Source: Tillus elongatus (taxonomy: Eukaryota > Arthropoda > Insecta > Coleoptera > Cleridae). From it: a stretch of 64,000 nt of DNA. The stretch is from positions 13,340,225 to 13,404,224 of the forward strand of contig OZ023264.1 in NCBI GenBank assembly GCA_964006375.1, given 5' to 3'. The notes under the pieces were generated by a model. That model had not been told where the DNA came from. It ran no database searches and worked only from the letters and a program-made list of their open reading frames with translations. A program made the position numbers and the translations under genes. Numbering within the stretch: the stretch's first letter is position 1; every line of letters starts with the position of its first letter. Shown here one piece after another: positions 10,901-16,900 of this stretch.

Positions 10901-13900
10901 TTTTCAGAACTGCCAGTTTTATGTTAATTCGACTAAATAATGTTAAGTAAATATTTACATATTACTGTTATTCCATTATCTGTCATTTCATTAATAAAGG
11001 TTATTAAATAAGTCAAACAAAAATTATTTGTTTTGATGTGCGCGCGGGCCATAAAGTGTACGTTTTGCTAGCGCGGGCCATAAAGTGTACTTTATGGCCC
11101 TTGGGCATAAAGTACACCATTATGTAGTTGGTAACTAAGCAATAGAAACACAATAATGAACTAGTATGACATAAAAAAACACAAAACAATATTCAACCAA
11201 AAAACAACACATTATTATAACAACAACCCTAAAGCATCACCAATGACAGGAATAATAAAAATCCACACAACGGGATACCCAATAAGACCACTCATCAACT
11301 TCAAAGATGCACCATCATACAAAAAAGCAAAAAAAAAGGTCCAAGTACTAAATCAAAAAATAAAAAGTCTAGAGCGGGAAGTGCGTTATGATAGTGAATT
11401 TTCTTAAAAATGTTTTAAATAGCAAATATGTGATTTTTTTAAAGAAAGCAGACATCAAATTTGATTACCATCATAACATATATAGTAGAAACAGTGTGCC
11501 ATGTTTCATGGAAATAACTTTATTGTTTGAAAATGTACAAAAAATGTTCGAAAATAAATTTAACATGTTCCCGAAAAAACTAGTTTCCTGTCCAACGAAC
11601 ATTATAGTTTAATAGCAAATTGAGCTATTCATAATTGAGGCATTCAATAAAAATTCGCCACAATAACGCACTTGCTGAGTCCCGAATTTATTTTCTTACA
11701 AACATGATAATAATTTCGTTGTCTAAATTCTGTACATTTAAGGTCAGCTCAGAACTGGTACTGACCGGGGGAATCTTTCTGTCAAATTAAGCCAAATCAT
11801 TGTTTAATCTATTTCAACTAAGCAGATTTTTCTGGCTAACGAACTTATCCAAGCCACTTGCAAAGGAAAGGTACTCGCCAAATTTGATCAAAATCGGCCT
11901 ATTATTTTTTGAGCTATCGGTGTGATATATATATATATATATATATATATATATATATATATATATATATATATATATATATATATATATATATATATAA
12001 ATTGAAACTGACCCCGGATATGTGTTCTCGGGGGCCTAATTAGTGCTAATTTGAACATATTAAAGACCACAAAAAAATGCAAATTTGGGAACAATACTAC
12101 ATTCAACAAACAAACAATAAAATACAAGTAATCCCAGAACAAATCCAAATACAAACATTTAAACAAAACTTAATAAAAGCCATACAAATAGACAAATTAT
12201 TAAACCACAGTGATCAAGACAGTAGACCGATACACACGACACAGTCCGAAGGCACAACCAACCAGAGAACAGTAAACCGACCAATAGAAGCTCAACACGC
12301 AGACGTCACGTAGAATTTCAGGCCTAGACCAGACAGGCAAGATCATAGTCAGTAGCGTGCTGATGATGAACCAGGACGGTTTGAAACTGCAGTCCACGTA
12401 AAACTAATAAACAATCACAAAAAGTTCAACAAACAAATAAAAGTCGCAATCTCCTCATTAGTGATTTTTTAAAAGAAAATTCACTAAAAAGTGTACACAT
12501 GTTAATTTTTTTGTCCACATTGTTATCATTTGTTATCACGAACAGAACAGAATAGTATAGAGAATTTCATTGCAATTGGCTGACTACGTGTAGGATTTTT
12601 TGAAAAGTCATTATATTATTTAGATGAGATATTATTATATATACTTACTCAGGGTAGGATCTGACAGCTGCGTCAAAATCATTTATGTACATTGCAGCAA
12701 ATATGTAGACAGATGTAAAGATACACAGTCCAACAACTATAGGTTTAACTAGTTTTTTATTTTTTAGTATAAACCAGAGTATGATCAGCTCTAGTATAAA
12801 ATAGTGGGTGTCATTGCAGAGGTACCATGTATGAGCCATACACTGAAAAAAAAAAAAAAGAAATACAAAAATATAAAAAGTATCTATATACAGGTGGTCC
12901 AAAAGTAATGGTACATAGAACAGCAGTAGATTCTTTGCATCAAAATAGCCAGAGTACCTACTTGATATTTTTGTAATTACATATAAAATGATGATAAATC
13001 GGCTAATATTTAAGCCCCGGGTGAAAACGGCACACAAAATAAAACTCATGAGATTGTATGTAAGACTAGATGCATTCTCGCAACAATTAGAACCGTAGAC
13101 CGGTTTCGCTCTCATTAGAGCTCTTCAGTACGGCATACTAATTGCAGCAAAAATGCACCAAAAATAACACGGCTATCGTATAGCCAGTCTTAAAACACTA
13201 AGTGAGTAGCGAACGTGTCGCCACCTAGTTCGGAACCAAGTACTTGTTGTCACGCCCGCTCCAAATAATACAGAGTATTAAAAATAGAGACGGTATACAA
13301 CTAACTAACAATTTTAAAAAATTGTTAGCCCTGGCCCATTTCTACCCCATAGTATGCCGTACTGAAGAGCTCTAATGAGAGCGAAACCCGGTCTACGGTT
13401 CTAATTGTTGCGAGAATGCATCTAGTCTTACATACTTTGTCCCTATATTGGGGTAGAAATGGGCCAGGGCTAACAATTTTTTTAAATTGTTAGTTAGTTG
13501 TATACCGTCTCTATTTTTAATACTCTGTATTATTTGGAGCGGGCGTGACAACAAGTACTTGGTTCCGAACTAGGTGGCGACACGTTCGCTACTCACTTAG
13601 TGTTTTAAGACTGGTTATACGATAGCCGTGTTATTTTTGGTGCATTTTTGCTGCAATTAGTATGCCGTACTGAAGAGCTCTAATGAGAGCGAAACCCGGT
13701 CTACGGTTCTAATTGTTGCGAGAATGCATCTAGTCTTACATACTTTGTCCCTATATTGGGGTAGAAATGGGCCAGGGCTAACAATTTTTTTAAATTGTTA
13801 GTTAGTTGTATACCGTCTCTATTTTTAATACTCTGTATTATTTGGAGCGGGCGTGACAACAAGTACTTGGTTCCGAACTAGGTGGCGACACGTTCGCTAC

Positions 13901-16900
13901 TCACTTAGTGTCATGAGATTGTACTTTATAAATATAATTTGATTTTAATACCTTTATGAGGAAACATTAATAATTTCAAAAACTACCTCACCCAATACGA
14001 AGAGGTTGAAGGAGGGTGGTGAATTTATTATGCCATTGTTTGCAAGTACTTGAATCAGTCATTCGAAACGTCATATTTTTTCGCTCTTTCTTAATTGGTG
14101 TTCGAAATATTCAGAAAATAAAAATTCCTCCCTTCCGCTTTGACAGATCCTAACTCCAACAAGACTACCCTGAGTACATTGAAACAACTGGCAACAGGAT
14201 ACATTAATGATACCCGGAAGGCCGACTTGTTGGAGCATAGGTATGTTATACTGTAGAGTCCAAACGAGGACAAAACCGGTTTATGTTTCCTGCTATACAT
14301 ACAATGAAAATTCACTAAAAATGAAATTAGTGCGACTTACCATGTTTTTACCATCAACGTACGTGTTAATGTAGAAAAGGTTACTCCACCAATTTTTCCT
14401 ACAACGTCTAAATTCTTGACCAATCAAATCATCCCAAATTGGGCCCCTTGAGACATGCCTTAACCATGTACAATGTATTGCCAAGACAAATACTAACGCA
14501 GGAGTCAATCTAAAACAAAATAGTTTACTTTCTAAATTCTAGTAACCCAATCATGTAGAAGAGGCTTTATATATATATATATATATATATATATATATAT
14601 ATATATATATATATATATATATATATATATATATATATATATATATATATATATATATATATATATATATATATATATAAAGTTACATGGCAAGTCTATA
14701 TCTGTATAAAAAGATAAAATAATGTAATGTCAACAACTCCAAATGTATAAAACATACACACATATATAAAACAACAAGTTATAAACATCTATACCAAATA
14801 AAAAACAAAGATGACAGCATATACTACAAGCAGCCTTTAGCGGTCGAAATTCAAGTTCAAGAGTTCAAGTATTCCTGCGTGCTGTAAAAAGAATATTCTA
14901 GAAGTAGCCTTTTCGCTTTTCTAGTGAATAGAATGATCGGCATTTGCTTCATACTGTTAGGCAGCTTGTTATGCAGTTTTATGCCCGTATAATTTGTACT
15001 TGACTGTGTACTCTTGATGCTTCTACTCCCGGCGATATGATGAAGACAAACACAGTCTAATCCACGACAGGCAGATCAACCGCCGACCTCCTTTCCTTTG
15101 CCACCCATTCTTGGAACAAGTCTATGGAACTACACGGTGAATCCCAGATTGTCGCTCTAGACATATCCAAAGCATTTGACCAGGTCTGGCACGCAGCACT
15201 GCTTAATAAACTTCCGGCCTATGGCCTCACACCAAAACTCTGTACCTGGACAGCAAATTTCCTCTCCAACCGGAGCATTTCTGTTGTCGTGGATGGCCAT
15301 TCCTCTAAACTGTATCCAATTAATGCAGGAGTTCCTCATGGTTGAGCTTTAGCCCCTACTTTGTTTATTCTCCACATAAATGACTTCCTGTCTAGCACAT
15401 CCAACCCAGTTCACAGTTATGCGGACGACAGCACCCTCCACTCAAATATACAATATTCTAAGCCTGTCTCTTTAGCCCAATTAGATGAGGATCGCAGACT
15501 CATGGAGGGTTCTGTCTCCGTGGATCTCCAAAAAATATTAGACTGGGGAAGTAGCAATCTTGTACAATTCAACCCCACCAAATATCAGTCTTGCTTTCTA
15601 TCTCATAATAGATACACCAACCCTAGACCCATTACAATGAACAACCAAGTTATTCAAAGTAATGAGTCCTTTTCACTTGTTGGCATTTCTGTGGATCGAA
15701 ATCTCAATTGGCACCAACATGTCACATCAATTGCAGAAGCGGCTGCTAAAAAAATTAGGTTTCCTCTTCCGGGCTCGCAAATACTTTTCCATAAGGCTAA
15801 ACCTCGAATACTGCTCCCACATCTGGGGTGCTTCTGCCGCTTCTACACTCGATATCATGGACTCCATTCAGAAGAGAGCTATACGTCTCATCGGTGACCC
15901 CACCCTCACCCAAAGGCTGACGTCGCTTGCCCACCGACGTGCCGTTGGTGACCTCTCTCTCTCTCTCTCTTTTATAGATATCTGCACGGGCATTGCTCAG
16001 AGGAGCTTTCTTCCATAGTTCCTCCACCTGCTGCCCCCAACGGATCTACCAGGGTAACAGAGCGAGTGCACCCTTTTACTGTCCAGGTCACCAGACATAG
16101 AACATCTTGTTATACCCGCTATTTTGTCCCGAGGACTTCCAAGTTGTGGAATTTCTTGCCGGCATATGTTTTTCCTTCTCCGAACCTTCAAGTCCAAAAT
16201 TAACAAGTTGACTATTTCTTCCTTGTCGACACCCACAGTACGATAGTATTTAGGCTGTAAGCCTTCGTGCTGTGTTGTTATAATATAATAATAATAATAT
16301 ATAATATAATATTGAATCAGAATTCAAGGTAATTTCATTGTGCAGCTTTTGGTGTCAATTTTGAAAGGTTTGTTTTCAAAATTATATCTTGGAGTTATCA
16401 AGTTTAAAACTTATTTGTCAAATGATGCTTTGTACAATTATTTACAATAAATATTATACTACTATATTAGAATATATTATTTAATATAGCCTACATACCT
16501 TAGGTATCTATGGACGAAAGCCATAATAAAATAATTCACGTTGAGATTTTTCTTATTATCAAAAGCGAGAAAAAGATGATATGTTAGTAAAAAGCCAGAC
16601 ATAAGAAAAAATGTTGAAACTGCATATCCACCACTAGATAAAAAAATATTCGCAGGTTTATCACGGAGCTGGAAATAAAAATCAGTTATTAGATACGAAA
16701 AATTAAATGGTTGATACTTGATAAAAATCTATTTTCGAATATTAACGGAACATTATTATTCTTATTATTACAGGCCGGCCGTTTCGCCACAAAACACAAT
16801 AAAAGATAATTATATTATACTAGCCGATCCGACAGACGTGTCCTGTCTAAATTTCAATTTGCGCAGGTAGCAAAATAAATCGGAGAAAAAATTACTTGCA

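Follow-up and report, generated by a model that had tools for sequence, protein, structure and literature searches.

Several described systems resemble the sequence reported here. Animal non-LTR (long terminal repeat) retrozymes, in the available part of their description (Cervera and de la Pena 2020, PMC7229834), have a non-coding, low-GC unit of 170-400 nt with a type I hammerhead ribozyme, are present in the genome as tandem units with target duplications of more than 4 bp, and have a predicted circular RNA that is strongly self-paired; a long interspersed nuclear element (LINE) or a Penelope-like element is named there as the candidate mobiliser. Plant LTR retrozymes, in the available parts of three papers (PMC4918200, PMC7229834, PMC7761336), are non-autonomous, bear a hammerhead and have a circular RNA intermediate, and are characterized by type III ribozymes, LTRs, a primer binding site, a polypurine tract, 4-bp duplications and circles of 600-800 nt. 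Penelope-like elements encode a reverse transcriptase and a GIY-YIG endonuclease, and their copies, according to the portions available, combine tandem direct copies and an inverted end copy with target duplications and a hammerhead (PMC11167929, PMC3846280), as in Adineta, where an inverted pseudo-LTR and target duplications are reported (PMC3846280). In vitro, the Penelope-like protein Poseidon of Anolis cuts and extends both DNA strands with a preference for ATT, and it starts at two internal sites, the interval between which is an optional tail (PMC11167929). Here we describe an element at positions 13056-13911 of a 64,000-nucleotide stretch of the beetle Tillus elongatus (the window; assembly GCA_964006375.1, contig OZ023264.1, 13,340,225 to 13,404,224, forward strand), together with its relatives in the host genome. 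We consider it likely that this element arose as a single insertion of an animal non-LTR retrozyme, made by double-ended (twin) target-primed reverse transcription with borrowed machinery.

The window unit is like the animal retrozymes in ribozyme type, in its non-coding, low-GC composition and length, in target duplications (7-15 bp in the window family), in its tandem units and in the strong self-pairing of its predicted circle. Its stem III is minimal (ACCGGT), closer to the amphibian dimer-type ribozymes. What sets the family apart is an insertion form with head-to-head arms and two paired start sites, which the available part of PMC7229834 does not mention for animal retrozymes. With plant LTR retrozymes the element appears, from its sequence, to share the non-autonomous, hammerhead-bearing plan with a predicted RNA circle, but its hammerhead is type I and its duplications are 7-15 bp. 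Like Penelope-like elements (PMC11167929, and PMC3846280 in the part available), the family combines direct tandem copies with an inverted one, target duplications and a hammerhead; it is also similar to them in its two internal start sites and AT-rich nicks on both strands (PMC11167929), with a motif, N↓TT, that is not identical. Unlike Penelope-like elements, the window unit encodes neither the reverse transcriptase nor the endonuclease, its ribozyme is type I with proximal and distal stem I, and its two start sites, on opposing strands of a predicted rod, are separated by about 170 nt, as against about 30-40 nt. The retrozyme class, its circles and the suggestion of Penelope-like help were already known, and the defined insertion form is the new addition; we found no description of a two-site head-to-head insertion form in the literature searched on retrozymes, hammerheads and Penelope-like elements, supplements and subscription papers aside.

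Self-comparison by blastn showed that the window element consists of two head-to-head arms. The inverted arm (13056-13349, minus strand, 294 bp) is 99% identical to the direct copy, and the direct arm (13350-13911, plus strand, 562 bp) holds 1.82 units with a period of 308 and 100% matches, the two direct units being identical at 254/254 positions across their overlap. The arms meet at an internal junction (13349/13350) where they share no bases. A full 308-nt unit, bounded on each side by a cleavage site, lies at 13394-13701 (plus strand, 40.6% GC) and corresponds to the predicted circular RNA. In unit terms, the inverted arm runs antisense from site A (unit 39, the first base past the duplication) round to 56, and the direct arm runs from 265 to 210, hence its outer end is at site B. 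An earlier note on this DNA had described three copies of a 308-bp unit; the period and the number of copies hold, and a geometry of three direct copies is ruled out by the self-comparison, the first copy being inverted. The note also overlooked a 12-bp target-site duplication, CATGAGATTGTA, which lies at 13047-13058 on the left (13 bp counting the preceding T) and is repeated exactly at the opposite end of the element, at 13912-13923; the last three bases of the left copy match the element as well. Its statement that the unit has no coding capacity was borne out, with longest stop-free runs of 46 amino acids on the plus strand and 58 on the minus strand.

Every copy in the window carries the hammerhead core CTGAAGA-GCTCT-AATG-AGAGC-GAAA plus GTC, with a 5-bp stem II (GCTCT/AGAGC) and a 5-bp proximal stem I. 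A descriptor search of the whole window found three such places and no further hammerhead, and none at all in 200 dinucleotide-shuffled windows. The hammerhead at 13652-13723 (plus strand) is a complete type I form with predicted cleavage after 13701; that at 13357-13399 (plus strand), in the arm that begins at 13350, has only part of a 5' distal stem I strand of its own and has predicted cleavage after 13393; and the one in the inverted arm (13076-13146, minus strand) is complete, with the last GUC base at 13098. The two plus-strand cleavage coordinates thus agree, as predicted positions, with those of the earlier note, and its claim of an intact core and stems in every copy stands for all three cores, stem II and proximal stem I, and for the full distal stem I in two of the three. 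The inverted arm has the perfect palindrome ACCGGT as its stem III, where the direct arm reads ACCCGGT; across the family, 45/69 complete units end in ACCGGTC and 17/69 in ACCCGTC, and the extra-C form (ACCCGGTC) occurs in a single unit (1/69), the window's complete direct one. The circular plus-strand monomer is predicted to fold with a minimum free energy of -103.3 kcal/mol (z = -6.0, 200 shuffles) and 69% of its bases paired, compared with 63% in shuffles, unlike the minus strand of the unit (z = +1.8). Viral contigs contained no exact match to the ribozyme core. We infer that the transcript would cleave itself.

The host genome (1.719 Gb, 30 contigs) was searched with the unit. The search returned at least 117 matches, and those grouped by eye and fetched made up 39 loci, of which L009 is the window element. 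The head-to-head form, with the left arm on the minus and the right arm on the plus strand, is present in 29/39 loci. The core motif is intact in 59/69 complete units, and of the 35 loci with a complete unit, 32 keep it in one unit or more; the search pattern left out the cleavage-site base, which was counted separately and is C in 57 of the 59. Dispersed copies with target duplications were among the checks that the earlier note proposed, and they are borne out by the matches, the 39 loci and the target duplications in 25/26 complete head-to-head loci. The many genomic matches, the intact cores, the duplications and the strong plus-strand circular fold support classing the element as a non-autonomous, hammerhead-bearing retroelement of retrozyme type. 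A rival view, of satellite DNA propagated by recombination in which the hammerhead is a relic, is hardly credible: tandem units do occur, among them a seven-unit array at L024, but the copies sit at dispersed places as single insertions that have fixed ends and target duplications, and most cores are intact.

The outer ends of the head-to-head loci proved to be fixed. With site A taken as unit 30-50 and site B as unit 198-220, windows that were chosen after the ends had been mapped, 26/29 head-to-head loci have one A end and one B end, and none has A+A or B+B. A lies on the left in 14 of these loci and B in 12, and the chance of 26 such pairs with independently drawn ends is about 2^-26 by our own arithmetic. 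The target duplications of the A+B loci measure 7-15 bp, ten of them 12 bp, and only L029 has none. Once the duplication is removed, the first base on the A side falls at unit 34-40 (median 37) and the last base on the B side at unit 206-214 (median 209); A and B positions within loci are uncorrelated (Spearman -0.04, p 0.85). The tetranucleotide CTTA is found at or just before both start sites, at unit 34-37 and 203-206 (window 13427-13430 and 13596-13599).

Complementarity between target and RNA and the sequence at the nicks were analyzed in 24 loci with duplications of at least 10 bp, L020 having been dropped. Beyond A, complementarity averaged 3.2/6 against 2.07 in permuted data (0/20000 permutations reached this value); beyond B the average was 2.38, compared with 1.78 (p 3.5e-4), scores that may be inflated since the borders of the ends are partly alignment-derived. 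The nicks on both strands share the motif N↓TT, with T at +2/+3 in 68/96 cases against 36% (p 4e-12); NTT stands at either nick in 18/24 loci and at both in 7/24. These related copies suggest that DNA was copied from both cut ends, from two fixed starts on one RNA. An alternative would be single-end target-primed synthesis followed by self-priming or a template jump onto the antisense template, the second end being merely where antisense copying stopped. Such a route also yields head-to-head inverted arms, and self-priming on an antisense template has already been proposed for Penelope (PMC3846280, part available); however, it leaves unexplained why the far end lies at the other start site in 26/26 of the head-to-head loci whose two ends both map to window A or B, why there is target-RNA complementarity at both ends and why the two nicks carry an identical motif, and we regard it as unlikely.

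Another alternative is mobilisation by a LINE with an APE-type endonuclease, using twin priming of the kind seen in L1 in place of Penelope-like machinery; LINE-type fragments with an RVT_1 domain are present in the window. Against it, neither end showed a poly(A) or simple-repeat tail when the 25 loci with duplications were inspected by eye, such a 3' tail being a trait of SINEs (short interspersed nuclear elements) mobilised by LINEs; priming is internal, at two fixed sites, and the same nick motif is found on both strands. We judge LINE mobilisation improbable, a little more so than self-priming. Penelope-like machinery is probably the mobiliser, being the best candidate in our analysis.

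In the predicted circular fold of the window unit, the two start regions lie opposite each other. The site A strand (13424-13436, plus strand, unit 31-43, containing the start region at unit 34-40) and the site B strand (13599-13612, plus strand, unit 206-219, with the start region at unit 206-214) form a helix, 31-43:206-219, in which 39 pairs with 210, and the pair probabilities are 0.62-0.95. This A:B helix was examined in an alignment of 39 units from 35/39 loci, out of 69 complete units. Its cells are paired in 93.8% of cases, compared with 29-46% after sliding, and its covariation score is above that of all 500 shuffles. The ends face each other within 3 nt in 17/25 loci and within 5 nt in 25/25.

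The interior of the arms bears on the nature of the template. In 50 arms from 25 loci (L038 was dropped as complex), site A is read through in 37/50, site B in 40/50 and the ribozyme cleavage junction in 42/50. Since most arms read through both sites, the template RNA would have been uncut at A or B, and an origin of the ends in RNA cut at the A:B helix, also considered, is ruled out by the same counts. Each arm was further compared with its sister at the same locus, and 48 comparisons, none from L025, had sufficient sequence in common. Ties included, the sister ranks as the nearest relative in 26/48, and it does so strictly in 17, compared with a mean of 2.6 (maximum 8) and 0.8 (maximum 4), respectively, for random partners in 200 draws; both arms therefore tend to derive from one RNA or one source. 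Inner arm ends occur at varied positions and show short overlaps or fillers. Of 52 such ends, 3 are at most 1 nt away from the cleavage site (p 0.03), no more than a hint of run-off at a ribozyme-cut 5' end. At L012:881 and L013:519, direct arms stop at the cleavage site after three whole units (followed at L013 by a 2-nt filler), the pattern that might be left by a linear multimeric template whose 5' end the ribozyme had made. Units within one arm are 90-100% alike (51 pairs), which is expected equally from a circle and from a linear multimer; the template may have been a circle.

Taken as a mechanism, double-ended priming would proceed as follows. Transcription would yield a multimeric or circular form of the 308-nt non-coding RNA with its type I hammerhead. 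Both target strands would be cut at N↓TT with a stagger of about 12 bp, and the two DNA 3' ends so freed would prime on one shared retrozyme RNA, perhaps simultaneously and aided by a few bases of target-RNA complementarity: the first would start at site A (34-40), its partner at site B (206-214). Each cDNA would then extend round the RNA for 48-1716 nt and end at a variable position, and the joining of the two would give a head-to-head insert between target duplications. Twin priming on one RNA would thereby account for the fixed paired ends, the complementarity at both ends, the equal nicks, the duplications and the similarity of sister arms. The agent would presumably be of the GIY-YIG, Penelope-like type. 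More tentatively, and with some doubt on our part, a dimeric Penelope-like reverse transcriptase/endonuclease could clamp the circular-RNA helix with its active sites at A and B, cut N↓TT about 12 bp apart and start both cDNAs at once. If so, this geometry might also explain, in general, how Penelope-like elements come by their inverted pseudo-LTR and their optional tail, the tail being the RNA between the starts.

A number of observations weigh against the proposed origin of the element. Only 40/143 candidate places were scored, and the copies seen are those nearest the window's copy. Ten of the 39 loci lack the head-to-head form (L018, L024, L026, L027, L028, L030, L033, L034, L040, L042), and L024 (317-2970), a direct-only array of seven complete units, the identities of which suggest sub-types, is a poorer fit. 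Among the 29 head-to-head loci, three have no B end (L031, L046 and L047) and instead combine an A end with unit 125, 193 or 101. Exact ATT is found at only 6/48 nicks, with TTT at 11 and GTT at 7. The sister arm is other than the nearest in 22/48 comparisons, and the window's own two arms differ at stem III, one other arm among 37 being closer than the sister. No autonomous Penelope-like partner was found, in Pfam, PDB and viral-contig searches of two window pieces only.

The remaining points on this side concern the RNA. The Rfam search of the window gave no match at the gathering threshold. In the covariance check suggested in the earlier note, three Hammerhead_HH9 matches fell at the right places, all below gathering: 30.8 (the complete hammerhead at 13652-13723), 30.4 and 25.3 bits under a cut-off of 52, with E-values of 1.7e-5, 2.3e-5 and 1e-3 in a 1.1-kb search and 9.7e-4, 1.4e-3 and 0.058 in the whole window, where sub-threshold matches to mir-5879 (both strands) and mir-944 had better E-values. 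The RNAalifold consensus of the 39 units omits the A:B helix, for which reason the helix was counted directly. Shuffling the letters within columns still leaves 92.5% of its cells paired, and neither the doubly changed pairs (1) nor the pair types (11) exceed the shuffles. The 10 compensatory cells all belong to pair 33:217 (U-A to C-G in 10 sequences) and perhaps go back to one event. Single circular folds form the outer part of the helix in 25/39 units and the inner part in 22/39. For two sites placed at random, opposition to within 2-3 nt is expected in 2.5-4% of cases, and the facing geometry alone is for that reason weak.

The element is located inside a host gene, as the earlier note had it. 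Exons of a gene with an Acyl_transf_3 domain (PF01757), identified from open reading frames and Pfam, flank it on the minus strand: one upstream of the element at 14347-14511, and the next at 12654-12843, preceded by a polypyrimidine tract and CAG, with the borders of both approximate and set by eye. Because exons of the same gene lie on both sides, the element sits in an intron of about 1.5 kb. A peptide that we joined from three exons, these two and one more, matched PF01757 with E 1.8e-9; we take the gene to be nrf-6-like. The Penelope-like fragments that the earlier note placed 1-3 kb away fared less well. The segments at 10409-10837 and 11165-11407 (plus strand; frames 10409-10660 and 11165-11350) resemble, in their motifs, Penelope-like N-terminal and early reverse-transcriptase sequences, but Pfam, PDB and viral-contig searches with them gave no support or relatives; the end of the first piece matches another repeat in the window.

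Other repeats were recorded in the window. LINE-type reverse-transcriptase fragments of one family, a candidate rival mobiliser, lie at 6583-7107, 15061-16018, 27819-28427 and 58487-59347; RVT_1 was found at 15061-15345 and 58487-59347 and was below the cut-off at 15346-15897, and the remaining pieces were judged by eye. An inverted repeat at 18477-18602, which matches mir-5879 in Rfam on both strands below gathering, is probably a transposon inverted repeat. Two transposase-like frames were seen on the minus strand, one at 42955-44034 with a DUF4817 match and HTH_Tnp_Tc3_2 below its cut-off, and one at 51471-52391 judged by eye.

The two-site ends with their matched nicks make the question of what moves animal retrozymes directly testable. 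The insertion form would show a single RNA templating two DNA ends, and it suggests a simple way in which Penelope-like elements may acquire their inverted copies. As an insertion signature, it points to how such elements spread.

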